DNA of 64,000 nucleotides from Motilibacter deserti (GTDB lineage Bacteria; Actinomycetota; Actinomycetes; Motilibacterales; Motilibacteraceae). The DNA lies in assembly GCF_011250635.1 (NCBI RefSeq), contig NZ_JAANNP010000002.1, forward strand, positions 132,478 to 196,477, given 5' to 3'. The translations under genes were made by a program, and so were the position numbers. Positions 16,120 through 33,526 of this stretch are shown piece after piece (the stretch's first letter is position 1; each line of letters starts with the position of its first letter). Under the pieces are notes generated by a model. It was given only the letters and a program-made list of their open reading frames with translations, had not been told where the DNA came from and ran no database searches.

Positions 16120-16193
16120 CGCGGGGTGGAGCAGCTCGGTAGCTCGCTGGGCTCATAACCCAGAGGTCGCAGGTTCAAATCCTGCCCCCGCTA
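16120..16193 (+). tRNA. Initiator tRNA-fMet (CAT), copy 1
   Basis: 74 bases through the discriminator A; CCA is not encoded. The acceptor stem starts with an unpaired C1 (C1.T72), the anticodon loop is CTCATAA with anticodon CAT, and the anticodon stem has the three G:C pairs (GGG/CCC) that mark initiator tRNA. The T arm is GCAGG-TTCAAAT-CCTGC. An identical copy lies 241 bases downstream. Confidence 0.97.
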
Positions 16194-16434: not shown

Positions 16435-16489
16435 CGCGGGGTGGAGCAGCTCGGTAGCTCGCTGGGCTCATAACCCAGAGGTCGCAGGT

Positions 16490-16508
<19 letters not shown>
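16435..16508 (+). tRNA. Initiator tRNA-fMet (CAT), copy 2
   Basis: Identical over all 74 bases to copy 1, including C1.T72 and the GGG/CCC anticodon stem. A TATGCT -10 box sits at 16418-16423. The last 19 bases overlap, on the opposite strand, the 3' end of the thiE/tenI reading frame, which stops at 16490. Confidence 0.97.
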
Positions 16509-18246
<1,738 letters not shown>

Positions 18247-18250
<4 letters not shown>

Positions 18251-19407
18251 GGTGCCGTGACCTCCCGTTGCGCGTCGATCGACTGGAACCTCTGGGGCGA
18301 GAACCGCTGCAGCAGCGGTGATGCCTGGCCCGTCGCCAGGAGCTCGGCGACGAGGTCGGCGGTGACCGGTGCCAGCAGCACGCCGTTGCGGTGGTGGCCG
18401 GTGGCGAGGACCAGCCCCGGCAGCGCCGACGCCCCGAGTAGCGGGGCGTTGTCGGGCGTGCCTGGTCGCCAGCGGGCCAGCGTCTCGACGAGCTCGAGCT
18501 CGGAGACGCCGGGCACGATCTCGGCGGCGTCGTGGAGCAGGTCGTGCACGGCGCCGGCCGTCACTCGCCCGTCGAAGCCCAGCTCGTCCGTCGTCGCCCC
18601 CACGACCAGGCGCCCGTCCGCCTGCGGCACCAGGTAGGCCGCTCTCCCGTGGACCATCCCGCGCACGGTGCCGGACAGCAGCGGCTCACCGCGCAGCCGC
18701 AGGATCTGCCCCTTCACCGGGCGGACCGGCACCGTGCCGGGCGGCAGGCCCGGCAGCCGCCCGCTCCAGGCGCCGAGGGCGAGCACTACGGCGGGCGCGC
18801 GCAGGTCGCCGTCACACAGGCGTACGCCCATGGCCCGGCCGTCCTCCACGACGAGGCCTTCGACCCGGGACGGCAGCAGCTCGACCCCTGCGCTCCGGCA
18901 CGCCGTGAGCAGCGCCGCGGACAGGGCGCGCGGGTCCACGGAATGGTCGTCGCGGACGAGCACACCGCCGCGGAGCCGCGGGGTGAGCGCGGGCTCGCGT
19001 CGTCGGCAGGCGCTCGCGGTCAGGCGGTCCGCGGCGAGCCCGAGCTCGCGGTGGAAGTCGTGCAGGGCGAACAGCGCCCGCAGGTCGTCCTCGTCGAACC
19101 CGACGAGGAGCGTGCCCGCCGTCCGCAGCCCCACCGACAGCCCGCTGGCCCGCTCGACCTCCGCGACGAACGACGGGTAGCGAGCAAGGGATGCGTGCGC
19201 GAGCTCGAGCAGCGACTCCTCGCCGTACGCGGCCTCTGCGACCGGCGCGAGCATCCCCGCGGCGGCGTGGGACGCGCCGCTGCCGGGGGCGTCGTCGACG
19301 ACCGTGACCCGCAGCCCGTGCTGCGCGGCGCGCCAGGCGACCGCCAGCCCCACGAGCCCGCCGCCGGCGACGACGACGTCGGCCGGGGCACGAGCAGGAA
19401 TGCTCAC
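18247..19407 (-). CDS. thiO: Glycine oxidase ThiO
   Basis: 386 aa FAD-dependent amine oxidase that makes iminoacetate (dehydroglycine) for ThiG from glycine and O2. FAD-binding GxGxxG: DVVVAGGGLVGLAVAWRAAQHG (~10-31). Further motifs: HAAAGMLAPVAEA, VPVRPVKGQILRL, YLVPQADGRLVVGATTDELGFD and the C-terminal LVLATGHHRNGVLLAPVTADLVAELL. The GTG start is only a few bases after the TPP aptamer, and its ribosome-binding site GGGAG is part of the aptamer core. Use of ThiO rather than ThiH fits an aerobic life style. Confidence 0.96.
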
Positions 19408-19408
19408 G

Positions 19409-19496
19409 CGATGCTCCCTACGCCGGCATTACCCGGACAGGTTCCAGCGGTCGGCAGCGCTTCGTAGCCGCCCTCTCAGCCCGGTCGTCCCGAGCT
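19409..19496 (-). promoter_or_regulatory. TPP (THI-box) riboswitch controlling thiOSGE
   Basis: On the minus strand the conserved THI elements appear in order: GGGCTGAGAGGGCGGC (pyrimidine-binding helix), CCGCTGGAACCTGTCCGGGTAATGCCGGCGTAGGGA (pyrophosphate helix), enclosed by a GCTC/GAGC P1 stem. Within this 3' core, GGGAG lies six bases before the thiO GTG, so TPP binding should directly hide the ribosome-binding site. No room remains for a separate expression platform. Confidence 0.95.
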
Positions 19497-19741
19497 CCCG
19501 CACAGCGGCGCGGAGTCTACGGCCTCGTGCTCCCCGGGCGCGCCGGCGCGGTCGCCGGGGGACGTCGGGGTCCGGGGCTCGCCGGGCCGGGACCTTCGTC
19601 CCACGGCCCCGTCGGGACCTTCGCCCGAGCCCTGTCGGGATCACCCGGGCGGCCCTCTGAACTGCCTGCTGCGCAGCCGTTTCTCCCGCTGACGACGGCA
19701 GCGCACGGACGCCTGCCGCGAAGCGCAGGAGGCGTTGCACA

Positions 19742-22700
19742 ATGACTGCTCGCACGGCACGGGGCGTGGCCTGGGCCGGGACGGCCACGGTGGTGGCCCT
19801 GCTGGCCGCCGCCATGACGCCCGTCGCCCCGCCGGCCGAGGCCGCGACGGCCGTCGGCGCGTCGGCGTGGGGCCAGAACGCGTACGCCCAGCTCGGCGAC
19901 GGCACCACCACGGCGCGCAAGACGCCGGTCACCGCGCGGCTCGGCGGCCGGGCCGCGGGCCTCGCCGCCGGCGACCGGCACAGCCTCGCCGTGGCCGAGG
20001 ACGGGACCGTCCTCGCCTGGGGCAGCAACGCGTACGGGCAGCTCGGCGACGGGACCGTCACCACCCGCAAGACCCCGGTCCGGGTGGGGACGCTGACCGA
20101 CGTGGTGGCGGTCGCCGCCGGCGCGTACGCCAGTGTCGCGCTGCGCGCAGACGGCACCGTCTGGGCGTGGGGGCGCAACACCGCCGGCCAGCTCGGCGAC
20201 GGCACGCTGACCAACCGCAGGACGCCGGTCAGGGTGCCGGGCCTCACGGACGTGCGGGCCATCGCGGCGGGAGACACCTTCACGCTCGCGGTCAAGACCG
20301 ACGGCACGGTCTGGGCCTGGGGGGCGAACGCCTCCGGCCAGCTGGGCGACGGCACGGTCACGACCCGCAAGAGCCCGGTGCGCGTGACCGGGATCTCGAA
20401 CGTCCTCTCCGTGGCGGCGGGCATCGCCTCCTCGGTGGCGCTGCGCGCCGACGGCACGGTGTGGACGTGGGGGGCCAACGCGTACGGCCAGCTCGGCGAC
20501 GGCACGCTGACCACCCGCAAGACGCCCGTGCAGGCGGTCGGCGTCACCGGCGCCGTGGCGGTCGACGCCGGCGACCAGGACACGCTGGTGCTGCGCAGCG
20601 ACGGGACCGTCCGGGCCTGGGGCCGCAACCAGAGCGGCCAGCTCGGCGACGGGACGACGACGACCCGCAGGACCGCGGTGTCCGTGACCGGCCTGGCCGG
20701 CGTGACCGGCATCGCGGCCGGTGACACGCACACCCTCGCGGTGCTCGCGGACGGCACGGTCCGCGCGTGGGGCGCGAACGGCAACGGCCAGCTCGGCGAC
20801 GGCACGGCGACCGCGCGCAAGACGCCGGTCGTGGTGAAGGGGCTCAGCGAGGCCGGGGTGATCGCGGCCGGCACGGCGCACACCCTCGCCGCCGCGCGCA
20901 ACGAGGCCTCCGGGCCGCAGCCGTCGGGCTGGTGGCCGGCCGAGGGCGACGGGGACGACGCCGCCGGGGACCTGACGGCGTCGCTCGGCGCCGGCGTCGG
21001 CTTCACGACGGGTGCGGTCGCGTGCGCCTTCGACGTCCCCGCGGACAGCGCGGTCGAGATCGCCGACGACCCCGCGGTCGAGCCCCGCGCCGCCTTCTCG
21101 TTCTCCGCGTGGGTCTCCCCGCAGGCCGTGACCGGCCGCCGCGTCGTCGCCGCCAAGTCGGAGGACGGCCGGCAGGCCTGGGCGCTCGCGGTCGTGGACG
21201 GCAAGCTCTCCGTCGACGTCAGCGCGGACGGCTCCGACGTCCGGACCGTCACCTCGACCTCCGCCGTCGTCGCCGCGAAGCGCTGGCAGCAGGTGGCCGT
21301 GACGTTCGACGGCTCTGTGACCGAGCCCGAGCGCGTGAAGCTGTACGTCGGCGGCCTGCCCGTCGCGGCCGCCGCCACCGCAGGCCCGCACTCCTCGGTC
21401 GCCGACGTGGCCGGGCCGCTGCGCCTCGGCGGCCCCGGCTGGTCCGGAGGGATCGACGAGGCCCGCGTCTTCCCCGGCCCGCTGACGGCCGCCCAGGTCG
21501 CCGACGTGCAGGCCGGTGACGTGGCGAGCGCCGGCGCGCCGTGCGACCTCGTGGCGCCGGTGACCGCGGCCGCCCTCTCCCCGAAGCCCAACACCGCCGG
21601 CTGGAACAACGCCCCGGTGGCCGTCACGCTGACCGCGACCGACAACACCGGCGGCACCGGCGTCGGCTCGCTGACCTACTCCGCGTCGGGGGCGCAGGAG
21701 GTCGAGGAGGACTCGGCCGACGGCGACACCGCGACCCTCACGGTCACCGAGGAGGGCCTCACGACGGTCTCCGCCTCCGCCTCCGACACCGCCGGCAACA
21801 CCGAGGAGGCGCGTGCCTTCGCCGTGCGGGTCGACCGCTCCGCGCCGACGGCGACCGTCTCCCGCGCCCCCGCGGCCAACGCCCAGGGCTGGAACAACGG
21901 CCCCGTCACGGTCGCCTGGGAGTGCGCCGACGCCGTCTCCGGGGTCGCGTCCTGCCCCGCGCCGCGCACCTTCGACACCGACGGCGCCGGCCAGTACGCC
22001 CTGGGCAGCGTCGTCGACGCGGCCGGCAACACCGCCGCCGTCCGCAGCGGTGACGTGAGCATCGACACGACGGCGCCGACCCTCACGGCGGGCCTGGCCG
22101 TCGCGCCTCACGCGTCCGGCTGGTACCGCGAAGACGTGCGCGTCAGCTGGTCCGCCACCGACGCGCTCTCCGGCATCGATGGGGCCGCACCGGCCGACGG
22201 CGTCATCGACGGCGAGGGCCGCGGGCTCACGACGAGCGCGCGGGTCTCCGACCGGGCCGGCAACGTCACCGTGGCCACGTCGCCCGCCGTCTCCATCGAC
22301 CGTACGGCCCCCGTCACGACGGCGTCCGCGCCCGAGGGCTGGGTACGCGGCGCGGCCGTGAAGCTCTCGGCGGCCGACAACCTCTCCGGTGTCGCGGCCA
22401 CCTGGTGGCAGCTCGACGAGGGGCAGCCGCAGCAGGGTGACCACGTCGACATCGACGAGGACGGCATCCATGATCTCCGCTTCTGGAGTGTCGACGCTGC
22501 GGGCAACGCCGAGGAGCCGGCGACCGTGCGGGTCCACGTGGACTCCACCGCGCCCGTCGTCACCCACCGGCTCGACCCCGAGCCGAACGCCCTCGGGTGG
22601 CTCCGGGACGACGTCACCGTGACCTTCGACTGCGCCGACGGCACCTCCGGCGTCGCCGAGTGCACCGCCCCGGTGCGCGTCACCGCAGAGGGAGCGGGCC

Positions 22701-24964
22701 GGACGGTGACGGGCTCCGCCCGTGACGCGGCCGGCAACACCGCGACCGACGTCGCCGTCGTGTCGATCGACCGGACGGCTCCCGCCGTGACGCCGTGGGT
22801 CGACGCGGTCGCCGCCGCCTCGGGCTGGTTCAACACCCCGGTGACCGTGTCCTTCGACTGCGCCGACGCGCTCTCGGGCGTCGTCGAGTGCGCCGGGCCG
22901 GTCACGCTCGGGGAGGGCCGCGGGCAGTCCGCTACGGGCACCGCCACCGACGCGGCGGGCAACGAGGGGAGCGGCACCCGCTCGGGCGTCGACGTCGACC
23001 TCACGGCCCCGACGCTGGCGGGCTCCGCCGGTGAGCGGCCCACGAGCGGCTGGTGGCGCGACGACGTCGTCGTCCGCTGGGAGTGCGACGACGCGCTCTC
23101 CGGGATCGACGGCGGCTGCCCGGCGCCTGCCTCTCTCACCGGCGAGGGCGAGCTCTCGACCGTCGCGAGCGTGGCCGACCGGGCGGGCAACACGACCGTG
23201 GCGCGCGTGGACGGCGTACGCATCGACCGCACCGCCCCTGTCACGACGGCGGACGTGGCCGCGGCGCTGGCGACGGGCTGGCACTCCGGCCCGGTCGAGG
23301 TGGCGCTGGCCGCCACGGACGCGCTGTCCGGCGTCTCGGTGACCCGCTACTCGGTCGACGGGGTGACGGCGTCCTACGACGGGGCCTTCACGGTCAGGGA
23401 GCCGGGCGTGCACGAGATCCGCTTCTGGAGCGAGGACGTCGCGGGCAACGTCGAGCCCGCGGGCTCGCTCACCGTCCGCATCGACGGCATCGCGCCGGCC
23501 GTCGCGGCGTCGTTCACACCCGCCCCGAACGCCGAGGGGTGGAACAACAGCCCCGTCGACGTGACGTTCACCTGCGGCGACGACGAGTCCGGCGTCGCCG
23601 AGTGCCCCGCGCCCGTCTTCGTCGGTGAGGACGGGGCCGGGCGCGCCGTGGCCGGCACCGCCGTGGACGCCGCGGGCAACGCGTCCACCGCGACCGCCGT
23701 CGTCAACCTCGACACCAGGGCGCCCGAGGTGTCGGGTGCCGCGACGACCGAGCCCGCAGCCACGGGCTGGCACCGCGAGCCGGTGACGGTCGCCTTCCGC
23801 TGCGCGGACGAGCTGTCCGGCGTCGCCGACTGCCCCGCCGCCGTCACGGTGGACCGGGAGGGCGAGGGGGTCGTCGTGAGCGGGACCGCCACGGACCGGG
23901 CCGGCAACGTGTCCGAGCCGGCCGAGGTCTCCGTGGACGTCGACCTGACGGCGCCGTCCGTCGCCCTGGCCGGCGGCCCGTCCGGCACGGTGGAGTTCGG
24001 GCAGGTCCCGGACGCCCCGACCTGCGAGGCCCGGGACGCCACGAGCGGTGTGGCCGGCTGCGTGGTGGACGGCTACGGCATCGAGGTCGGCGAGCACGTC
24101 GTGACCGCGACCGCGACCGACGCTGCGGGGTGGACGAGCACGGCCACCCGCGCCTACACGGTGGTCAAGGCCCGCCAGGCCATCCGCTTCGACGCCCTCG
24201 GCGACAAGCGCGCCGGTGACCCGGACGTCAACGTCGTGGCCGTCGCCTCGTCGGGGCTGCCGGTCGAGCTCCGCGCAAGCGGCGCGTGCACCGTGTTCGC
24301 GACGACGGTCCACCTCGTCGGGGCGGGCCAGTGCTCGATCACGGCCTCGCAGCCCGGCAACGGCAGCTACGAGCCGGCGGCAGACGTCACCCGCACCTTC
24401 ACGGTCGCGACCACCGTCCTCGACGGCTTCGACCGAGCCAACGGCTGGGTCGGGTCGGACTGGGCCGGCACTGTGGGCACGGCGTTCTACCGGGTCTCCG
24501 GGCGCGCGCTCGACGTCCGGGCCGGCGGCCCGCTCGTCTACCGGGCCCCGTTCGGCACGACGCAGGAAGCGCAGATCACCCTCACGGACGTCGACCCGCG
24601 CAGCCATGCGGTCGGGGTGCTGCTCAAGGCGCAGACGGGCAGCATCCCGAGCGCCGGGGCGATCTCGGTGACGTACGACGCGAAGGAGAAGGCGGTCGAG
24701 GTCTCGACCTTGCGGGTGGGGACGCTATCCTGGAAGGTCTACACCGGCAAGGCGGTCACGTTCGCCGACGGCGACGTGCTGCGCGCCCGGGTGACGGCCG
24801 CTGGCGACGTGCAGGTCTACCGCAACGCGACGCTCGTCACGACCGTCACGCTGAGCGCGGCCGACAAGGCCTTCTTCAACCCCAAGGGCGGCCAGATCGG
24901 GATCTGGGCCCACCCCTCGACGAGCGGCCTGGTCGACGACTTCGGCGGCGGCACGGTCGGCTGA
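19742..24964 (+). CDS. Secreted RCC1-propeller / LamG / Ig-like repeat protein
   Basis: 1740 aa, ATG with AGGAGG ten bases upstream. A signal peptide (AWAGTATVVALLAAAMTPVAPPAEAA, ~10-35) is followed by seven RCC1 repeats (~38-390; each ...WGxNxxGQLGDGTxTxRKTPV...), enough for a complete seven-bladed propeller. A LamG/concanavalin-like domain follows (~395-595, GWWPAEGD...FSFSAWVSP...). Then come ten ~85-residue Ig-like units with a GW-N/xxPVxV...CxDxxSGVxxC...DxAGN core plus one degenerate unit (~600-1478), a further beta domain (~1480-1555) and a C-terminal beta-jelly-roll-like domain (~1560-1740). No catalytic residues, sortase signal or membrane anchor is visible. It is probably an extracellular adhesive or glycan-binding protein; that is inference from domains. 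It is a single-gene unit ending at a strong terminator. Confidence 0.85.
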   Translation: MTARTARGVAWAGTATVVALLAAAMTPVAPPAEAATAVGASAWGQNAYAQLGDGTTTARKTPVTARLGGRAAGLAAGDRHSLAVAEDGTVLAWGSNAYGQLGDGTVTTRKTPVRVGTLTDVVAVAAGAYASVALRADGTVWAWGRNTAGQLGDGTLTNRRTPVRVPGLTDVRAIAAGDTFTLAVKTDGTVWAWGANASGQLGDGTVTTRKSPVRVTGISNVLSVAAGIASSVALRADGTVWTWGANAYGQLGDGTLTTRKTPVQAVGVTGAVAVDAGDQDTLVLRSDGTVRAWGRNQSGQLGDGTTTTRRTAVSVTGLAGVTGIAAGDTHTLAVLADGTVRAWGANGNGQLGDGTATARKTPVVVKGLSEAGVIAAGTAHTLAAARNEASGPQPSGWWPAEGDGDDAAGDLTASLGAGVGFTTGAVACAFDVPADSAVEIADDPAVEPRAAFSFSAWVSPQAVTGRRVVAAKSEDGRQAWALAVVDGKLSVDVSADGSDVRTVTSTSAVVAAKRWQQVAVTFDGSVTEPERVKLYVGGLPVAAAATAGPHSSVADVAGPLRLGGPGWSGGIDEARVFPGPLTAAQVADVQAGDVASAGAPCDLVAPVTAAALSPKPNTAGWNNAPVAVTLTATDNTGGTGVGSLTYSASGAQEVEEDSADGDTATLTVTEEGLTTVSASASDTAGNTEEARAFAVRVDRSAPTATVSRAPAANAQGWNNGPVTVAWECADAVSGVASCPAPRTFDTDGAGQYALGSVVDAAGNTAAVRSGDVSIDTTAPTLTAGLAVAPHASGWYREDVRVSWSATDALSGIDGAAPADGVIDGEGRGLTTSARVSDRAGNVTVATSPAVSIDRTAPVTTASAPEGWVRGAAVKLSAADNLSGVAATWWQLDEGQPQQGDHVDIDEDGIHDLRFWSVDAAGNAEEPATVRVHVDSTAPVVTHRLDPEPNALGWLRDDVTVTFDCADGTSGVAECTAPVRVTAEGAGRTVTGSARDAAGNTATDVAVVSIDRTAPAVTPWVDAVAAASGWFNTPVTVSFDCADALSGVVECAGPVTLGEGRGQSATGTATDAAGNEGSGTRSGVDVDLTAPTLAGSAGERPTSGWWRDDVVVRWECDDALSGIDGGCPAPASLTGEGELSTVASVADRAGNTTVARVDGVRIDRTAPVTTADVAAALATGWHSGPVEVALAATDALSGVSVTRYSVDGVTASYDGAFTVREPGVHEIRFWSEDVAGNVEPAGSLTVRIDGIAPAVAASFTPAPNAEGWNNSPVDVTFTCGDDESGVAECPAPVFVGEDGAGRAVAGTAVDAAGNASTATAVVNLDTRAPEVSGAATTEPAATGWHREPVTVAFRCADELSGVADCPAAVTVDREGEGVVVSGTATDRAGNVSEPAEVSVDVDLTAPSVALAGGPSGTVEFGQVPDAPTCEARDATSGVAGCVVDGYGIEVGEHVVTATATDAAGWTSTATRAYTVVKARQAIRFDALGDKRAGDPDVNVVAVASSGLPVELRASGACTVFATTVHLVGAGQCSITASQPGNGSYEPAADVTRTFTVATTVLDGFDRANGWVGSDWAGTVGTAFYRVSGRALDVRAGGPLVYRAPFGTTQEAQITLTDVDPRSHAVGVLLKAQTGSIPSAGAISVTYDAKEKAVEVSTLRVGTLSWKVYTGKAVTFADGDVLRARVTAAGDVQVYRNATLVTTVTLSAADKAFFNPKGGQIGIWAHPSTSGLVDDFGGGTVG
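19862..20880 (+). repeat. Seven tandem ~150-bp RCC1-coding repeats
   Basis: The DNA encoding the RCC1 propeller repeats about every 150 bases, with highly similar cores such as CAGCTCGGCGACGG recurring near 19890, 20040, 20190, 20340, 20490, 20640 and 20790. Such near-identical units allow recombination that would change blade number. Confidence 0.85.
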
Positions 24965-24977
24965 GACGGGCCACGAC

Positions 24978-25019
24978 ACGACAGCGGCGCCGGAGGGCAT
25001 CCTCCGGCGCCGCTGTCGT
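24978..25019. terminator. Strong bidirectional terminator
   Basis: A perfect 19-bp stem (24978-24996 with 25001-25019) closes a GCAT loop, 14 bases after the RCC1-protein stop and 18 bases before the stop of the convergent GH43 gene. It can serve both transcripts. Confidence 0.9.
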
Positions 25020-25036
25020 TGAACAACGCGGGAACG

Positions 25037-27406
25037 CTACTTCAGCGGATACGTGTGCACGTAGTCGAACGTGGCCAGGGCGCCGGACGCGTTCATGGAC
25101 ACGAGGCCGATCTTGAGGTCACCTCTCTTCGGCATCGTCCACACGCCACCCCACGTCCACGACGAGCCGTCGGTGCTCGTCGCCATGCGCACCTCGTTCT
25201 CGTTGTGGACCGCGTCGTAGTGGTAGGCCAGCCGCAGCCACGTCGTCACCGCGGGCGGGCCGCCGAACATCGGGCCGTTGAACACCGCGGTCGCGGGGAC
25301 CGTCGTCGGCCGCTCGGCCTCCTTGCCGAACTCGGTCTGGTGCAGCACCGTGTTGGCCAGGCCCGTCAGCGGCAGCACCGAGTGGGCGAGCTTGAACCAC
25401 CGGTCGTCGTTCTCGTAGAGCAGGATGCCGGCCTGCTGGTTGCCGCGCGTCCCGTTGAAGGCCAGCTTCGCCTCCACGACGTAGTCGCCCGCAGGCGTGG
25501 GCCGCGTCAGCACCGAGGCGGTGTTGTTGGTCGTGTAGATCTCCGCGTTCTGCGTCGGCCAGGTGAGCGCGCCGTCGGCCTTGACCGCGTTGGCCGCGCC
25601 GGCGCCGCGGACCCACGTCCACGCCGGGTCGCCTGCCTCCGGCCGGCCGGTGCCGTCGAAGTCGTCGGAGTACGCCGGCAGCAACGGCCCGAGCTGCGGG
25701 TCGTCGACGCGCTCGGTCACCGGGACGTACAGGTCGGCGGCGCTGAGGTTGTCGGCCTGCACGGTGGTGCCGAGCGAGGCGACACCGACGCGTCCGCGCA
25801 CGCCTGCGTCCGGCACGGTCGCGGTGACGGTCCCCAGCGGGTCGCCCAGCCGGTCCTCGGACACCTGCGCGGTGAGGATGTGGCCGCGTACCTCGACCGC
25901 GACGTTGTGCCAGTCGTCGTAGTCGAAGCCGGCGGGGAGCGGCGCGCTGGTCTCCGTGGACTTCTTGCCGTCGCTCACGCTCACCAGGAGGGCCTTGCGG
26001 CCGCGGTCGAGCCACGCGGTGACCCGGTCGTTGCCGCGCTCGGAGACGACGAGCCCGACCGCGCCCGCGCTGCCGCCACCGGTGATGCGCAGGTCGGCCT
26101 CGACGCGGGAGTCGCCGTTCACGCGGGTGTCCGACGTGAGCAGTGCCGGCAGCCCCTTCGTGGGCGAGCCTGTCTGCGTCAGCACGCCGCCCGCGTCCGG
26201 GACCTGCGTGACGGACCACTTCTCGCCCTTGCCGCCGCGCAGCCGCCAGCCGGCAAGGGACGCGGTCTCGAAGCCGGACTGCACCACGCCGGTGGTGACG
26301 GGGGCGGCCTGCGGTGTGTCCGAGGGGCCGGCTCCCGCGCGCAGCACGGGCCAGCCGCCGATCCAGTCGAGGCGGTCGATGAGGAGCGGGCGCTGCGACA
26401 GCGTCTTGACCCCGTCGACCGTGTTGAGCGGCGGGAAGTCCGGAGTGGCCGAGGGGATGCCGTGGTAGACCAGCCAGTCCTGGCCGGCGAGGTCGGTCGT
26501 GATGGCGTTGTGGCCCGGACCGACGAACGTGTTGCCGTTGGCGGCCGCGACGATGCCGGCGTGGCTGCGCAGGTCCATGAGGTCCTGCCCGTCGGGCGCG
26601 AGGAACGGCCCGCGCGGGCTCTTGGACCGCCCGACCTTGACCGTGTAGCCCGAGAAAGCGCCGTCGCAGCAGCCGCCGTCGGAGTAGAACAGGTAGTACC
26701 AGCCGCCGCGGTTGACGACGAAGCCGCCCTCGGCGCGCCGCCCGCGCGCGATCTGGGTGACGGGACCCCTCAAGGCCGTGGCGGTGGCGTTCATAGCCGA
26801 CACGCAGATCGTGTCGTAGCTGCCCCAGTAGAGGTAGTGCGTGCCGTCGGAGTCGGTGAACAGCGCCTGGTCGATGGCGTTGCTCGGGCAGCCGCTGTTG
26901 GGGGGCACGAGCTGGCCGCGGTCGGTCCACGGCCCGGTGGGGGAGTCGCTCGTCGCCAGCCCGATGCCGCTCGTGGACAGCGAGTAGGTCAGGTAGTAGC
27001 GGCCGTCCAGATAGCGGATGTCCGGTGCCCAGGCACGCGTGTTGGAGCGCCACCACGACGGGCGCGCCTCCTGGGCGAACACGTCACCGGCGTACGTCCA
27101 GGTGACCATGTCCGTCGAGCGCAGGATCGGCAGGAAGTGCTCGCGGGTCTCGCCCTTGCTGGAGAAGATCGGGTTCGTGGTGCCGTAGGCGTACCAGGCG
27201 CCGTCCTTCGCGCGGACCATCGTGGGGTCGGGGAGCGTGTCCACCGTCCCGGCGGTCACGGGGTTCGTGTACGTCGCGGGCGGGGCCTGCGGTGCCGCCC
27301 TCCCCGCGGGGGCTGCGGTCGCGGCCCCCGGTGCGGTCACGAGGGAGGCGGACAGGGCGAGGCCGCCGAGCAGCGCCATGGCTCTCGGCTTGGCTGGGGT
27401 TCTCAC
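25037..27406 (-). CDS. Secreted glycoside hydrolase family 43 protein (arabinanase/xylosidase-like)
   Basis: 789 aa. The start is the GTG at 27406, overlapping the sulfatase stop as GTGA; it yields a signal peptide (MALLGGLALSASLVTAPGAATAAPA). The five-bladed GH43 domain (~40-360) shows the catalytic triad: base Asp in DTLPDPTMVRA, pKa-modulating Asp in RAWAPDIRYLDG and acid Glu in GRRAEGGFVV. GGWYYLFYSDGGCC and FVGPGHNAI resemble endo-1,5-alpha-L-arabinanase-like members. Two further beta-sandwich regions follow (~400-560 and ~580-789, the last like the GH43 C-terminal DUF1349-type domain: WTWVRG...FNGTRGNQQAGILLYENDDRWFKL). It likely acts outside the cell on arabinan- or xylan-like chains. 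It is the last gene of the ROK-ABC-sulfatase operon. Confidence 0.9.
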   Translation of the reverse strand: MRTPAKPRAMALLGGLALSASLVTAPGAATAAPAGRAAPQAPPATYTNPVTAGTVDTLPDPTMVRAKDGAWYAYGTTNPIFSSKGETREHFLPILRSTDMVTWTYAGDVFAQEARPSWWRSNTRAWAPDIRYLDGRYYLTYSLSTSGIGLATSDSPTGPWTDRGQLVPPNSGCPSNAIDQALFTDSDGTHYLYWGSYDTICVSAMNATATALRGPVTQIARGRRAEGGFVVNRGGWYYLFYSDGGCCDGAFSGYTVKVGRSKSPRGPFLAPDGQDLMDLRSHAGIVAAANGNTFVGPGHNAITTDLAGQDWLVYHGIPSATPDFPPLNTVDGVKTLSQRPLLIDRLDWIGGWPVLRAGAGPSDTPQAAPVTTGVVQSGFETASLAGWRLRGGKGEKWSVTQVPDAGGVLTQTGSPTKGLPALLTSDTRVNGDSRVEADLRITGGGSAGAVGLVVSERGNDRVTAWLDRGRKALLVSVSDGKKSTETSAPLPAGFDYDDWHNVAVEVRGHILTAQVSEDRLGDPLGTVTATVPDAGVRGRVGVASLGTTVQADNLSAADLYVPVTERVDDPQLGPLLPAYSDDFDGTGRPEAGDPAWTWVRGAGAANAVKADGALTWPTQNAEIYTTNNTASVLTRPTPAGDYVVEAKLAFNGTRGNQQAGILLYENDDRWFKLAHSVLPLTGLANTVLHQTEFGKEAERPTTVPATAVFNGPMFGGPPAVTTWLRLAYHYDAVHNENEVRMATSTDGSSWTWGGVWTMPKRGDLKIGLVSMNASGALATFDYVHTYPLK

Positions 27407-28905
27407 GTCGTCGGGCTCCGATAGGTCGATTCGTCGAGGCCGCTCAGGGTCGGGTCGTACGCGACCTCGCCCACGGCGTACATCGACGTCATCCAGTGGT
27501 AGAAGTTGTCGCCGCGCTCGCGCAGGAGCGTGTAGAGCCGCTGCAGCATCGCGTCTCGGACCGGCCGCATCTCGGGGTGCCCGTAGACGTTGACCAGCTC
27601 GTCGGGGTCGAGCTCCAGGTCGTAGAGCTCGTTCACGGAGTCCGGGTTGACCACCAGCTTGTAGCGGTCGTTGCGGAGCATCCGCTGGGGATAGGGGAAG
27701 TGGTGGCCGTGGAACTCGCACACGACGTCCTCCGCCCACTCGACGTCCGCCCCGCTAGTGAGCGGAAGCAGGCTTCGCGAGTCGACGGCCGGAGCCGGGT
27801 CGATGCCGGCGAGCTCGAGGATGGTGGCGGTGCAGTCGAGCAGGCTGACGAACTCGTCGCGCACAACCCCGGCCGGCTGGCCGGGGACCCGGAGGATCCC
27901 GGGAGTGCGGTAGATGTCCTCGTACATCGCCGGGCCCTTGTCGTGCAAGCGGTGCGACCCGGTGAACTCCCCGTGGTCGCAGGTGAAGAACACGGCGGTC
28001 TCGTCGGTGAGCCCCAGCCGGTCCATCGCGTCGAGGACGCGGCCGACCTCGCGGTCGATGAGCGCGACGTAGCCCTGGTAGACGGCGATGAGCTTGCGCG
28101 AGGCCTCGATCGGCATGGTGTCGAAGGTCCAGTGGGCGCTGTAGTTGCGCTGCACCGGGGGCTTGCCCTCGAACGTCTCGATCACCGAGCGCGGCATCTC
28201 GACCGACTCGGGGTCGACGAGGTCGAAGTACTCGTCGGGGAGGATGTAGGGCAGGTGCGGCCCGAAGAAGCTCAGCTTGAGGAAGAAGGGCGTCCCGTCG
28301 GAACGGGCCTGCTCGGCGTAGCGCTCGAGGTGCTCGATCGCCCGCGTCGCCAGGTAGTGCTCGAACGTCGCCTCGACCGGCTGGTGCAGGCGGGCGGCGA
28401 GCAGGTTGCCCGGCCCACCGTTCGGTAGCGTGCCGCGCACCCGGTCGCTGATCGCGTACTCCGGGAGCCCGTTCTCCTTGAGGTAGGCCAGGTAGTCCGG
28501 CGCGTCCACCGGGTTGTGCCACCCCGGGAGGTCCGGCCCGTCGAAGCCGTAGTCGGCCGGCGCCTTCTCCGTCCCGGTGTGCCACTTGCCGATCAGGCCG
28601 ACGTTGTAGCCCTCCTCGCGCAGCGCCTGTGAGTAGGTGAACGTCCCCTCGGGGAGGTCCTCGAGATAGCCGACGTTGCGTTCGTGGTTCGCCAGCAGCT
28701 TGTGGCGGAAGGGCGCCTGCCCGGTGAGCAGGCTGGCGCGCGAGGGGGTGCAGATCGCGGTCGGTGTGTACCACCGGTCGAACCGCGTCCCCGAGCGCGC
28801 CAGCCCGTCCAGGACCGGCGTCGTCCCCTGCGGGTTCCCGTAGGCCCCGAGCGTGTCCACCCGGTGCTGGTCGGTCATGAGGAAGAGGATGTTGCGCCGG
28901 CTCAC
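27403..28905 (-). CDS. Type I sulfatase (formylglycine-dependent)
   Basis: 500 aa. Alkaline-phosphatase-fold sulfatase hydrolysing sulfate esters. Start GTG 28905 gives MSRRNILFLMTDQHRVDTLG with the metal-binding Asp of TDQHR. The FGly sequence is CTPSRASLLTG with Cys at residue 52, the Cys-type motif needing FGE or a radical-SAM maturase; neither is in the window. Other landmarks: GLIGKWHTG (Lys/His), FFGPHLPY, FFTCDHGEFTGSHRLHDKGPAMYEDIYRTP (metal-binding Asp-His) and NDRYKLVVNPDSVNELYDLELDPDE. No signal peptide, so it acts in the cytoplasm on imported substrate. It lies 5 bases after the binding-protein gene and overlaps the GH43 start. Confidence 0.94.
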   Translation of the reverse strand: MSRRNILFLMTDQHRVDTLGAYGNPQGTTPVLDGLARSGTRFDRWYTPTAICTPSRASLLTGQAPFRHKLLANHERNVGYLEDLPEGTFTYSQALREEGYNVGLIGKWHTGTEKAPADYGFDGPDLPGWHNPVDAPDYLAYLKENGLPEYAISDRVRGTLPNGGPGNLLAARLHQPVEATFEHYLATRAIEHLERYAEQARSDGTPFFLKLSFFGPHLPYILPDEYFDLVDPESVEMPRSVIETFEGKPPVQRNYSAHWTFDTMPIEASRKLIAVYQGYVALIDREVGRVLDAMDRLGLTDETAVFFTCDHGEFTGSHRLHDKGPAMYEDIYRTPGILRVPGQPAGVVRDEFVSLLDCTATILELAGIDPAPAVDSRSLLPLTSGADVEWAEDVVCEFHGHHFPYPQRMLRNDRYKLVVNPDSVNELYDLELDPDELVNVYGHPEMRPVRDAMLQRLYTLLRERGDNFYHWMTSMYAVGEVAYDPTLSGLDESTYRSPTT

Positions 28906-28910
28906 GGTGC

Positions 28911-29924
28911 TCAGCCCTGGCTCGCCGCCTGCGTGAACAGGTCGCCCTCGTAGTAGGTCTTCGGGTCCACCTGGCCCTTGAGCTTGCCGGCCCCGATGAA
29001 GAAGTCGTTGAGCCCGGTGAGCCACTTGTCGATCGTGCCGTCCTTGGTCAGCGTGTCGACCTCGGCCGCGTCCAGGATCTTGTTGTTGCCGGCGTCGGCC
29101 TCGACCTGCGCCTCGTCGATCTTCAGCATCTTCGCGGTGTCGGCGATCGTGGCGTCCAGGTTGGCGGCGCGGTAGGCCATGGCCTCGCGGAGCACCGCGA
29201 CCACCTTCTCGGTCTTCTCCCTCTCCTCGGCGACGACCTTGTTGCCGGCGACGAAGGCGGTCGGGAAGGACAGCTCGTCGGAGAAGTCGGAGTCCTTTGC
29301 GAGCTCGACGAGGTCGGGCACCTGCTGCTTGATGGTGGAGATGGCGGGATACCAGAAGCCGGCTGCGTCGATCTTCTTCGACGAGAACGCGGAGACGATC
29401 GTCGCGGCGTCCATCGGGGTGACCTTGACGTCGTCCTTCGTCAGCCCGGCCTTCTCCAGCGCCAGCGTGAGGATCATGTCGCCGGACGTCCCCTCGGGGA
29501 CGCCCACCGTCTTGCCCTTGAGGTCGGCGACGGACGTGATGCCCGGCTGCGCGATGACGCGGTCGGCGTTGCCGAGCGTGTTGATCGCGATGATCTTCGC
29601 CTGCCCGGAGGCCGGGAGCCACACGGCGCCCGGGCCGATGTAGCCGAAGTCGAGGTCGCCGGTGCCGAGCGCCTGGATCTGCAGCGGGCCGTTGGTGAAG
29701 ACCCTGGTCTCCGCCTTGAGCCCGTGCTTGGCCCAAAGGCCCTGCGAGTCGGCGACGGCGAGCAGGCTGGTGCCGTTGAAGTCGCCGATGTAGCCGAAGT
29801 CGACGGTCTCCAGCTTGCCGGAGGCGGAGCCGCCGCTGGAGCCGTCGTCCCCGCCGCAGGCGGCCAGCAGCACGCTGGCGGCCAGTGCGGCGGTCACGGC
29901 GAGGAGCTTGCGGGGGAGGAGCAT
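28911..29924 (-). CDS. ABC transporter substrate-binding lipoprotein, NitT/TauT (SsuA/TauA) type
   Basis: 337 aa. The ATG at 29924 is chosen because it follows AAGGAG and gives a lipoprotein signal peptide ending in the lipobox LLAAC (Cys ~24), followed by a Gly/Ser linker. The mature part is a periplasmic-binding fold of the sulfonate/nitrate/NMT1 type: VDFGYIGDFNGTSLLAVADSQGLWAKHGLKAET, GDLDFGYIGPGAVWLPASG, ITSVADLKGKTVGVPEGTSGDMIL and AFSSKKIDAAGFWYPA. Relatives bind small anionic compounds such as sulfonates and sulfate esters, rather than sugars. It precedes the sulfatase gene by 5 bases, so a sulfated ligand is likely. Confidence 0.92.
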   Translation of the reverse strand: MLLPRKLLAVTAALAASVLLAACGGDDGSSGGSASGKLETVDFGYIGDFNGTSLLAVADSQGLWAKHGLKAETRVFTNGPLQIQALGTGDLDFGYIGPGAVWLPASGQAKIIAINTLGNADRVIAQPGITSVADLKGKTVGVPEGTSGDMILTLALEKAGLTKDDVKVTPMDAATIVSAFSSKKIDAAGFWYPAISTIKQQVPDLVELAKDSDFSDELSFPTAFVAGNKVVAEEREKTEKVVAVLREAMAYRAANLDATIADTAKMLKIDEAQVEADAGNNKILDAAEVDTLTKDGTIDKWLTGLNDFFIGAGKLKGQVDPKTYYEGDLFTQAASQG

Positions 29925-29943
29925 GAAGTCAGGTTCTCCTTGG

Positions 29944-30750
29944 TCAGGCCGTCGGGACGGACGGCTGGGGGACGACGGCGGGGCCGCCGTCCTGGTGGTG
30001 GACCGCACGCCAGACCCGGTTGCGCAAAGCTGCGAACTCGGGGCTGAGGCGGGCCTCCTCGGGCCGGGGATAGGGCAGGTCGACGTCGATGACGTCGAAG
30101 ACGCGGCCGGGGCGGGCCGCCATGACGACGACGCGGTTGGCCAGGAAGACGGCTTCGTCGACGTCGTGGGTGATGAAGAGCACCGTGCGGCGCTCCTCGT
30201 TCCAGGTCTGCAGCAGCTGCTCCTGCAGGTTCACGCGGGTGAGCGCGTCGAGCGCGCCGAAGGGCTCGTCCATCAGCAGGATCGAGGGGTTGACCGCGTA
30301 CGCCCGCGCGATGGCGCAGCGCTGGCGCATGCCGCCGGAGAGGGTCTTGGGCAGGGCGTCGGCGAACTGCTCGAGCCCCACCAGGCGCAGGTAGTGGTCG
30401 GCGAGCTCGCGCCGTTCCCGGCGGCCGACGCCCTGCTCTCGCAGGCCGAACTCGACGTTCCTGCGCACCGTGAGCCAGGGGAAGAGCGCGTACTGCTGGA
30501 AGATGACGCCGCGGTCCGGGCCGGGGCCGGACACCTCGCGGCCGTCCACCACGGCGTGGCCGCCGGTCGGCTCCTCCAGCCCGGCGAGGATGTTCATCAG
30601 CGTCGTCTTGCCGCACCCCGACGGCCCGACGACGGTGACGAACTCGTTGTCGGCGATGTCGAGGGAGACGTCCTGCAGGGCGGCGAGCTCATGGCCGGCC
30701 AGGTCGAACGTCTTGCTGACGCTGCGGACGGAGATCTTCGGGGTGGCCAT
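29944..30750 (-). CDS. ABC transporter ATP-binding protein, NitT/TauT (SsuB/TauB) type
   Basis: 268 aa. Walker A GPSGCGKTTLMNIL (~44), Q-loop GVIFQQYALFPWLTV, signature LSGGMRQRCAIARAYAV and Walker B SILLMDEPFGALDALTR with the H-loop FITHDVDEAV are all intact. The sequence PFGALDALTRVNLQ is typical of the nitrate/sulfonate/taurine subfamily. Its ATG overlaps the permease stop (ATGA), and the binding-protein gene follows after 19 bases. Confidence 0.95.
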   Translation of the reverse strand: MATPKISVRSVSKTFDLAGHELAALQDVSLDIADNEFVTVVGPSGCGKTTLMNILAGLEEPTGGHAVVDGREVSGPGPDRGVIFQQYALFPWLTVRRNVEFGLREQGVGRRERRELADHYLRLVGLEQFADALPKTLSGGMRQRCAIARAYAVNPSILLMDEPFGALDALTRVNLQEQLLQTWNEERRTVLFITHDVDEAVFLANRVVVMAARPGRVFDVIDVDLPYPRPEEARLSPEFAALRNRVWRAVHHQDGGPAVVPQPSVPTA

Positions 30751-31574
30751 CAGCGGCGCTCCTGCCATCCGGTGACGCGGCGTTCGACCAGCAGCAGCAG
30801 CCGGTCCATCACCAGTCCGAGGACACCGATGCTGATCAGGCCGACGAAGATCGTCGGCAGGTCGTAGTAGAGCTGCGCGCTCTGCATCCGGTAGCCCAGC
30901 CCCGACTGCGCGGCGATCAGCTCGGCGGCCACGAGCGTCGCCCAGGCCGAGCCCAGTCCCACGCGCATGCCGACGAAGATGAACGGCGTCGAGGCCGGGA
31001 TGACGACACGCAGGAAGATCGAGAGGTCCCGCGCGCCGAGGACGCGCGCGGCGTCGATGAGAGTGCGGTTCACGTCGACGACGCCCTGGAACGTGGCGAT
31101 GACGCAGGCGAGGAATGCGGCGAGGAAGATGACGAAGACCTTCGGCGTCTCGTCGATGCCCATCAGCACGATGGCGAGCGGGATGATCGCGAGCGGGGGG
31201 ATGGTGCGGAAGAACTGGATCCACGGCTCGATGAGCGCGCGCGCCGTGGCGTACCACCCCATGAGGAAGCCGACGGGGACGGCGGCCGCCGTGCCGAGGG
31301 CGAAGCCGAGCACCACGCGGCGCAGGCTGGCCCTGACGTCGTCCGCGAGCGTGCCGTCCGCGACCAGCTCGCCGGCGCGGCGCGCTACGGCGGCCGGGGT
31401 CGGCAGCGTGTAGCCCAGCAGGGCGAGCGTCTCCCAGCCGGCGACGCCGAGCACGATGGAGACGAGGTTGAGCACGAGGGAGCGCCCGCGCCATCGCCGC
31501 CGCCGGCGGGCAGGCGCGGGTGTGCCTCCGGTGGTCACGGCGGGCGCGGCGCGGCGCGGGTCCGTCAGCTGCAT
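30750..31574 (-). CDS. ABC transporter permease, NitT/TauT (SsuC/TauC) type
   Basis: 274 aa, ATG behind AGGAAGAG. After a basic N-terminus (RRRRRWRGR) there are about six transmembrane helices, and the cytoplasmic EAA loop is [65 protein letters not shown] is the typical subfamily stretch. It pairs with the ATPase and lipoprotein just downstream. It begins 44 bases after the ROK regulator stop, probably on the same transcript. Confidence 0.95.
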
Positions 31575-31618
31575 TGCGTTCTCTTCCTGACGGCGGGGTG
31601 GGAGTGGTACGCGGGCGG

Positions 31619-32860
31619 TCACGAGGCGCTCGAGCGCGGCTGCGCCGGTCGGTCGTCGTAGGCCGCGACGGGGTAGTCGGCGATGAGCGGCGAGCTGTGG
31701 AAGAGGGCGGCGAGCGCGCCGAGCGCTCCGGACTCGTCGGAGAGCCAGCCGGCCCGGACGCGCGGCTCGCTCGTGGCGTGCGGGAACCGGTCGTAGCGCA
31801 CCGTCGCGGCGACCTGCTCGACGAGCACGGGCGCCACCCGGGCGATCTCGCCGCCGATAACGATCTCGTCGGGGTCGACCGCGACGGCGACCGCGCTGAC
31901 CGCCGCGCCGATCGTCTGCCCGGCCTCGCGCAGGACCCGGTCCACCACCGGGTGGGCGCGCTCCACGTGCGTGCGCAGGTCGGCCAGGGTGCGCGCGTTC
32001 ACCCCTTCCTGCCGACAGCGCGCGAGGACAGCCGGGGTCGAGGCGAGCGTCTCCACGCACCCTCGTTTGCCGCAGCGGCAGGCCTTGCCGCCCGCGGGCA
32101 CGGCCCGGACGTGGCCGAGCTCGCCGGCGAGGCCCGTCGAGCCGGTGACGAGGCGCCCGTCCACGACCAGCCCGCCGCCGACGCCGTCGGCGACCCGGAC
32201 GTAGAGCAGGTTGCGCACCTCCGCGCCGGCGCGCACGGCCTCCCCGAGCGCCGCGAGGCGGGTGTTGTTGTCGAGCACGACCGGGGTCTCGAAGCGGGAG
32301 CTGAACGCCTCCGCGACGCCCTCGGCGGTGTCTCCGAACGGCCGCCCGCTCCGCCTCGTCGGGCGCGGGGCCAGCGCGGAGGAGTAGGGGCCGGGGACGC
32401 CGACCCCGACGCCCTGCAGCGCGCGGTAGTGCACGCCGGACTCGTCGTGCAGCCGGTCCAGCAGGGTGAAAGCGGTCTGCACGCGCTCCGGCCACTCCGC
32501 CGTGGCCCGGGGGTATGCCGCAGCCCCCGCGGCGACGATCTCGTGCGAGGCGTCCGCGACCGCGACGTGGACGGTGCGGTGGCCGAAGTCGACGCCCAGG
32601 AACTGCCCGGATGACGGGTCGAGGGCGAGCCGCTCGGCCGGGCGCCCGCTGCCGGCACGGCCCTCGGCGTCCGTGCCCAGCACGATCACGGCGCCCTGGC
32701 GCAGCAGGCCGCCGGCGATCTCGGAGGTGGAGGAGCGGGAGAGCCCCAGCGTGCGCGCGATCTCGCTGCGCCGCAGCGGGCCCTGCTCGCGGAGGGCGCG
32801 CAGCAGGCGCTCCTCATGCGAGCGGCGGACCGCGTCGTACCGCGCCTGTGGAACCAGCAT
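31619..32860 (-). CDS. ROK family transcriptional regulator
   Basis: 413 aa. N-terminal winged helix-turn-helix (~14-65: [35 protein letters not shown]) fused to a sugar-kinase-like ROK domain. Visible: ATP-site strand [42 protein letters not shown] and the zinc site [29 protein letters not shown] (CxCGxxGC). ROK repressors sense sugars or sugar phosphates. It is first in the transport-sulfatase-GH43 operon, so it likely represses that operon and itself until a glycan-derived ligand binds. The -10 box is only 7 bases before the ATG, implying a leaderless mRNA. Confidence 0.93.
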
Positions 32861-32867
32861 GGTAGGG

Positions 32868-32897
32868 ATACTAGGGCTGCTTGGATTTTTCCTTCAA
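32868..32897 (-). promoter_or_regulatory. Promoter of the ROK/transport/sulfatase operon (probably leaderless)
   Basis: On the minus strand TTGAAG (32892-32897) and TAGTAT (32868-32873) are 18 bases apart. The -10 ends 7 bases before the ROK ATG, so transcription should begin at or next to the start codon. The spacer contains an A-run unusual for this genome. Confidence 0.7.
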
Positions 32898-32928
32898 CGC
32901 GCCGACAGAAAAACTTGGACGATCGTCC
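32885..32928. promoter_or_regulatory. Candidate ROK operator(s)
   Basis: Two symmetrical elements lie at the -35 region and upstream of it: TTTTTC and GAAAAA half-sites about 16 bases apart (32886-32913), and a perfect 12-base palindrome GGACGATCGTCC at 32917-32928. ROK repressors often bind AT-rich inverted repeats, so either could be the operator. The assignment is inferred from position and symmetry only. Confidence 0.45.
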
Positions 32929-33016: not shown

Positions 33017-33526
33017 CTACGCCCCGAGCGCGTCGTCGTCCTGCAGGGCGCGGTCGACGAACTGGGCGAGCCGGTCGCGCAGCCGCTCGACCCGGCCGGG
33101 GGAGCCGACCGGCTCGGGCTGGGTGAGCGTCAGCGGGCGCAGCCCGCGGACGTAGAGCGAGCAGGCGAGGTCGCTGCAGATGTAGGTGCCCACCGTGTTG
33201 TCGTTGCGGCCCGCCGCCCCGGCGCGCTTGGCGACCAGCAGCGAGACGTCGCCGGCCGGGTGCGCCGAGTGGCACAGGTTGCACAGGCCCGAGCCGGGGC
33301 GCAGCCCCGAGCGCCCGGTGGCGCGCAGCGCGAGGCCGACGAGCCCGTCGCGGTGCGGGGTGACGAGGTATGCCCGCTGCGGCGAGCGCGGGTCGCGCCA
33401 GCCGAGGAAGTCCAGCGGCTCCCAGTCGAGCGCGTCCAGCCCCGCGGGCAGCGTCATGCGCTTGGCCTCGCTGCGCGAGCAGTTGACGAACGACGCGCGC
33501 AGCTCGTTCTCGCTGACGGCGTCCAC
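33017..33526 (-). CDS. FBP-domain (treble-clef zinc finger) protein
   Basis: 169 aa. The start is the GTG at 33526 with an excellent GAGGAG seven bases upstream. It begins VDAVSENELRASFVNCSRSEAKRM, the start of the actinobacterial FBP domain, related to the C-terminal zinc finger of elongation-factor-binding (FusB-like) proteins. Zinc ligands are CNLCHS (CxxC, ~90) and ICSDLACSLYVRG (C..C, ~120). GWRDPRSPQRAYLV is another family motif. FusB-type proteins bind EF-G and protect translation, but the role in actinobacteria is untested. Confidence 0.82.
   Translation of the reverse strand: MDAVSENELRASFVNCSRSEAKRMTLPAGLDALDWEPLDFLGWRDPRSPQRAYLVTPHRDGLVGLALRATGRSGLRPGSGLCNLCHSAHPAGDVSLLVAKRAGAAGRNDNTVGTYICSDLACSLYVRGLRPLTLTQPEPVGSPGRVERLRDRLAQFVDRALQDDDALGA

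Follow-up and report, generated by a model that had tools for sequence, protein, structure and literature searches.

Much of the organic sulfur in soil and marine environments is held in sulfate esters. In Pseudomonas, an ABC importer of the SsuA/TauA type (AtsRBC) adjoins the cytosolic arylsulfatase AtsA. Expression of atsA is induced by sulfur starvation (PMC12581299). This Ats system is the nearest described system to a six-gene operon of Motilibacter deserti, located in the 64,000-nucleotide stretch of DNA that was analyzed here as a whole (hereafter, the window). Actinomycetes are major degraders of glycans, and their use of sulfated sugars is little described. The reading that is considered moderately probable is that of a self-regulated operon through which a sulfated glycan or glycoside would serve as a source of carbon and perhaps of sulfur. 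The ROK protein would occupy a palindromic operator that overlies the promoter of its gene, thereby holding the operon off; a secreted GH43 enzyme of the arabinanase/arabinofuranosidase type would trim the substrate outside the cell; an SsuA/TauA-type lipoprotein and an ABC importer would bring in a small sulfated product; a sulfatase in the cytosol, for whose activation a formylglycine-generating enzyme (FGE) is encoded elsewhere in the genome, would take off the sulfate; and the sugar, or its sulfated precursor, would release the ROK protein. This order of events we infer, as we do the identities of cargo, sugar, and inducer, and the notion that carbon, not sulfur, is what the cell chiefly gains.

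The sequence itself shows the content, order, and conservation of the genes, a recurring operator-like site, the protein folds, and active sites that are intact. All six genes were present on the minus strand, from position 32860 down to 25037, and the successive intergenic gaps of 44, -1, 19, 5, and -4 bases were as the preliminary description had given them (-4 to +44). They code for a predicted ROK-family repressor (413 amino acids; 31619-32860; Pfam matches ROK and HTH_IclR), an ABC permease of the SsuC/TauC type (274 amino acids; 30750-31574; BPD_transp_1, PF00528), an ABC ATPase of the NitT/TauT type (268 amino acids; 29944-30750; ABC_tran, PF00005), a substrate-binding lipoprotein of the SsuA/TauA family (337 amino acids; 28911-29924; NMT1), a predicted cytoplasmic S1 sulfatase of the formylglycine type (500 amino acids; 27403-28905; Sulfatase and SGSH_C), and a predicted secreted GH43 enzyme (789 amino acids; 25037-27406; GH43 and GH43_C2). 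Neither a sugar kinase, an isomerase, nor a monooxygenase, which could have confirmed a use of carbon or sulfur, nor a SusC/SusD pair was found among these six fully assigned genes, and Pfam revealed no desulfonating monooxygenase or dioxygenase among them. The 73 bases between the end of the GH43 gene and a convergent gene for an RCC1 protein contained a perfect 19-bp hairpin (24978-25019, no strand assigned; folding dG -50.2 kcal/mol, z -7.0), which likely marks the end of transcription of the operon; a terminator scan did not call it, since the hairpin lacks a T-run. The convergent gene (19742-24964, plus strand) codes for a secreted protein of 1740 amino acids that combines RCC1-like repeats with a LamG-like part and numerous Ig-like repeats. 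On the other side of the operon, a small gene (33017-33526, minus strand) resembles one of a Microbacterium (L066:1298-1786; LRASFVN... LGWRDP), both lying near the locus.

Patterns derived from the sulfatase gene were scanned against 84,980 species, each represented by a single genome. This gave 390 confirmed relatives, the best 80 of which were kept. These best 80 of the 390 displayed 78 to 83% identity, and every named one came from an actinomycete. Dozens of soil and marine actinomycetes have the core of the locus, which occurs in Streptomyces, Kribbella, Actinomadura, Microbacterium, Agromyces, Nonomuraea, Micromonospora, and further genera. Its distribution is patchy and not universal, since only five of 148 sampled related genomes, that of the window counted, carried the sulfatase. 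A search for the same gene order in other actinomycetes had been proposed in the preliminary description, and indeed, of the 67 actinomycete loci whose flanks were nearly complete, 62 had the five-gene core (ROK, permease, ATPase, lipoprotein, and sulfatase) adjoining and on one strand, with median gaps of -1, -4, 18, and -4 bases. With so many loci keeping the core contiguous, the shared arrangement is far beyond chance. A GH43 gene directly after the sulfatase gene, as in the window, occurred in Amycolatopsis acididurans; elsewhere, it was mostly located before the ROK gene or divergently. The window-type GH43 was present in 22 of the 67 loci, and a second secreted GH43-like enzyme (6a) and a TIM-barrel-like protein (6b), counted jointly, in 34; at least one of these enzymes lay within 10 kb in 54 loci, and the other 13 had none of them within about 10 kb. 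Furthermore, an FGE gene was found in 35 of the 67 loci (in 22 directly after the sulfatase gene) and in 45 of 85 loci, and a second sulfatase gene directly followed that of the core in 22 of the 67. A few loci (L041, L070, and L083) contained the ROK and sulfatase genes with the transporter not nearby. These few, like the 13 loci lacking GH43 and 6a/6b, speak against the preferred reading. Isoptericola cucumis possessed two copies of the locus (L041 and L078), of which L041 retained only the ROK and sulfatase genes, preceded by two operator-like sites.

In nearly every relative, the region ahead of the ROK gene contained TCTTTCTGTCGGAGTGTTGACGGAAAAATT, an imperfect palindrome including a -35-like hexamer, the fullest form of which reads TTTTTCTGTC, 8 bases, GACGGAAAAA. 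In the window, the candidate operator (32884-32913, minus strand) is TTTTTCTGTCGGCGCGTTGAAGGAAAAATC, a 30-bp palindrome, new here, that overlaps the -35 hexamer of the ROK promoter. A matrix trained only on ROK upstream sites (n = 67 regions) scored the window site, left out of the training, at 40.4 bits, and this was the only strong site in the window; the same matrix gave no hits of at least 14 bits when the loci were shuffled by mononucleotide (1.18 Mb). The operator pattern occurred once in the 5-Mb genome of the window at up to three mismatches, and among 394 genomes of the class it was found, at one mismatch, only in the window genome and in another locus-carrying genome (G143), a strict pattern that misses variants such as that of G087. 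With the same matrix, operator-like sites were also located before GH43 genes away from the ROK promoter in about 15 loci (e.g., L021, L039, L040, L042, L050, L065, L066, L068, L082, and L083), before many divergent or separate 6a genes, and, where a ROK gene was missing nearby, before the sulfatase gene (L044). This recurrence before separately transcribed GH43 genes suggests that ROK, importer, sulfatase, and GH43 form one regulon, and no other evidence speaks as strongly for a joint control of enzymes and transporter as this shared site. That they make up one transcription unit or regulon, as had been proposed before, is supported by the conserved order, the shared operator-like site, and the fusion of GH43 with 6a in six loci.

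The putative ROK promoter (32868-32897, minus strand), read from the sequence, consists of a -35 hexamer TTGAAG (32892-32897), an 18-nucleotide spacer, and a -10 hexamer TAGTAT (32868-32873) that ends 7 nucleotides before the ATG, indicating a nearly leaderless ROK transcript. A generic promoter scan did not flag this promoter; many relatives have a similar layout, with TTGACG followed by a TA-rich hexamer close to the ATG. Motifs compared across relatives revealed a winged protein with a zinc motif and the ExGH sugar motif. In the alignment with glucokinase 2qm1, an asparagine takes the place of the catalytic aspartate (DNNTR for DNDAN). As the kinase aspartate is replaced and the zinc and ExGH motifs are kept, the ROK protein is most likely a sugar-sensing repressor and not a kinase, in agreement with the regulatory role that had been assigned to it, and it may bind the 30-bp palindromic site.

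The presence of an N-terminal signal sequence, recognized by eye, supports secretion of the GH43 enzyme. Its catalytic D/D/E residues aligned with those of arabinanase 1uv4 (PF04616, 194 bits; five-blade propeller). The label endo-arabinanase AbnA was rejected (NF053747, 123 bits versus a cut-off of 480). In the 148 related genomes, three GH43 enzymes were at least 50% identical to that of the window, all three encoded at the locus; the remaining ones were at most 46% identical and all off-locus. The window genome itself carries a paralogue of 45% identity elsewhere. Similarly, in a maximum-likelihood tree, in which the sampling was uneven as locus members had entered through the sulfatase, 25 locus GH43 enzymes, including that of the window, clustered with 100/100 support and stood apart from seven off-locus relatives, with the exception of L070, which fell with the latter on a long branch. 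GH43 and 6a were fused into a single open frame in six loci, and 6a and 6b in a Kribbella. No 6a relative was found in the window genome, so that the window GH43 must act without it. The 6b proteins (about 400 amino acids) have no Pfam match and carry NEP and TEF motifs; a model of 6b, with a mean pLDDT of only 70.7, matched GH-A TIM barrels (Z 19.8, about 10% identity), and a profile search of the family against solved structures gave no match. They are possibly an undescribed family of glycoside hydrolases. Members of 6b were located beside or fused to 6a in L012:3309-4526, L017:11523-13808, L008, L026, L035, L053, L060, L064, and L081. In Promicromonospora (L062, L067, L074, and L077), a CUT1-like sugar ABC importer directly preceded the GH43 gene, perhaps serving a neutral product.

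Since NCBIfam arabinanase models scored far below their cut-off, endo activity of the GH43 enzyme is not established. These scores, and the fact that SsuA-type binding proteins take small ligands, would suit a narrower version of the preferred reading, in which the substrate is a sulfated small glycoside or natural product and GH43 an exo-glycosidase. The GH43-type fusions in six loci and the adjoining TIM-barrel enzyme suggest a larger glycan instead; this version is rather unlikely. Under the broader reading of a sulfated glycan or glycoside, the substrate is most likely a sulfate-bearing plant or algal sugar. The sugar may be arabinose or xylose, as the preliminary description had proposed, and its desulfated form may be what the ROK protein senses.

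The lipoprotein, with a lipobox LLAAC recognized by eye, exceeded the curated cut-off of the SsuA family model TIGR01728 (226.9 versus 163.5 bits), and the folds nearest to its AlphaFold model (pLDDT 89.8) were those of TauA (Z 29.9) and SsuA (Z 28.4), which upholds the NitT/TauT type proposed earlier for this transporter. For the permease, the NCBIfam models SaoP, TauC, NtrB, and SsuC scored best, and for the ATPase SaoA, NtrCD, and TauB, all of them below cut-off. Across families, the lipoprotein was 58 to 74% identical to its relatives, which we read as pointing to one ligand shared by the lipoproteins of these loci. The cargo may be a sulfated sugar product; we know of no substrate-binding protein of the SsuA/TauA family that binds a sugar sulfate. 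In a reading that seems slightly less likely still than the small glycoside, the operon would scavenge sulfur in the manner of Ats, assorted sulfate esters being imported, the cytosolic sulfatase freeing the sulfate, and GH43 being a loosely attached helper. Indeed, an SsuA-family importer combined with a cytosolic sulfatase is the anatomy of Ats, and the TIGR01728 score fits it as well. The regulator, however, is a sugar-type ROK repressor rather than one of the CysB/LysR type, GH43 or 6a/6b accompanies the core in 54 of the 67 loci and comes under the same operator-like site, and no desulfonating monooxygenase was recognized among the recurrent neighbor families of the loci.

The sulfatase starts with VSRRNILFLMTDQ and lacks a signal peptide, and the consensus of 38 aligned relatives (77-83% identical to it) has only about five residues ahead of the catalytic NILFLMTDQ motif, so that desulfation is expected in the cytosol. 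A sulfatase without and a GH43 with a signal peptide had been noticed before, and both observations stood. The CTPSR motif was confirmed and, together with D12/Q13, K107/H109, H217, D310/H311, and K323, was invariant in 39 sequences; C[TS]P[SA]R was present in 85 of 85 locus sulfatases. The active site of this predicted cytoplasmic enzyme is intact, and the matches with PF00884 (158 bits) and PF16347 place it in the formylglycine S1 type. Choline sulfatase was rejected as its identity (TIGR03417, 180 bits versus a cut-off of 433). Phosphonate monoester hydrolases carry Y-x-T where arylsulfatases have K-x-H; the sulfatase reads GKWH, from which a hydrolase of that kind was rejected too. The window genome encodes only two PF00884 sulfatases, that of the operon and one other, and a single FGE (PF03781, 285 bits; C214), located on a contig other than that of the operon and up to 67% identical to locus FGE enzymes.

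An improbable alternative is that the sulfated glycan is desulfated outside the cell by other sulfatases, that the importer carries free sulfate or another anion, and that the operon sulfatase handles leftovers. The extra sulfatases in many loci, the secreted glycoside hydrolases in or near all loci, and the Promicromonospora CUT1 importers before GH43 would agree with this, but the core sulfatase lacks a signal peptide in the aligned relatives, the window genome has just one other PF00884 sulfatase, and the binding protein is closest to TauA and SsuA, not to sulfate binders. Finally, an importer for the thiamine precursor pyrimidine HMP, suggested by the NMT1 (NMT1/THI5 domain) match of the lipoprotein and by thiO/S/G/E-like genes recognized by eye 6 kb away (16490-19353), was rejected as highly improbable, because the only TPP riboswitch of the window (19398-19511, minus strand) precedes these thi genes, a unit separate from the operon, and not the operon itself, HMP and thiamine binders matched the lipoprotein model less well (Z 25.0 and 23.4) than TauA, and the relatives keep the importer together with the sulfatase. 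A tRNA gene may have been duplicated in the window: two such genes (16120-16193 and 16435-16508, plus strand), separated by about 240 bases, scored equally with Rfam, and the latter of them runs across the end of the thiE-like frame.

Taken together, the loci represent a conserved, probably co-regulated actinomycete system, probably for the use of sulfated carbohydrates, and the main inference of the preliminary description is on much firmer ground than from the window alone. The wider claim, which we hold to be evenly poised, is that of a widespread, undescribed actinomycete regulon in which a sulfonate-type importer has been repurposed for sulfated sugars, which are desulfated after import by a cytosolic formylglycine sulfatase under a dedicated ROK switch. 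If sulfated sugars are indeed the cargo, this would break the expectation of CUT-type sugar importers and extracytoplasmic sulfatases. The locus further offers a testable operator, an unexpected type of importer, a second GH43-like family, and an unassigned TIM-barrel family. No description of the six-gene composition was found in the open full-text literature, leaving uncontradicted the earlier statement that no such pathway had been described; this novelty is provisional, since most subscription journals were outside the search. Among known proteins, the FGE of Streptomyces coelicolor (PDB 2q17), for which the open literature gave no account of a role in sugar use, is close to the FGE enzymes of these loci (448 bits with that of Actinomadura madurae). 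The loci offer a natural setting for such enzymes, akin to one whose structure has been solved. The solved structure nearest to the sulfatase by sequence, exo-2S-iota-carrageenan sulfatase 6pt4, has the same formylglycine catalytic core, but a shared substrate cannot be concluded from only 167 bits over the whole length. In Bacteroidetes and PVC bacteria, loci for the utilization of sulfated polysaccharides similarly combine coregulated sulfatases and glycoside hydrolases, whereas the operon has no SusCD, a predicted cytosolic desulfation, and a NitT/TauT-type importer. The sulfonate importers SsuABC and TauABC resemble it in that its lipoprotein passes the SsuA family model and folds like TauA and SsuA, but the operon contains a sulfatase and neither an SsuD nor a TauD monooxygenase. 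Lastly, the Pseudomonas Ats system shares the SsuA/TauA-type importer and the cytosolic sulfatase, whereas the operon has a ROK repressor, a secreted GH43, and, in its relatives, often an FGE and further sulfatases, a context that suggests a sugar locus rather than sulfur-starvation control.
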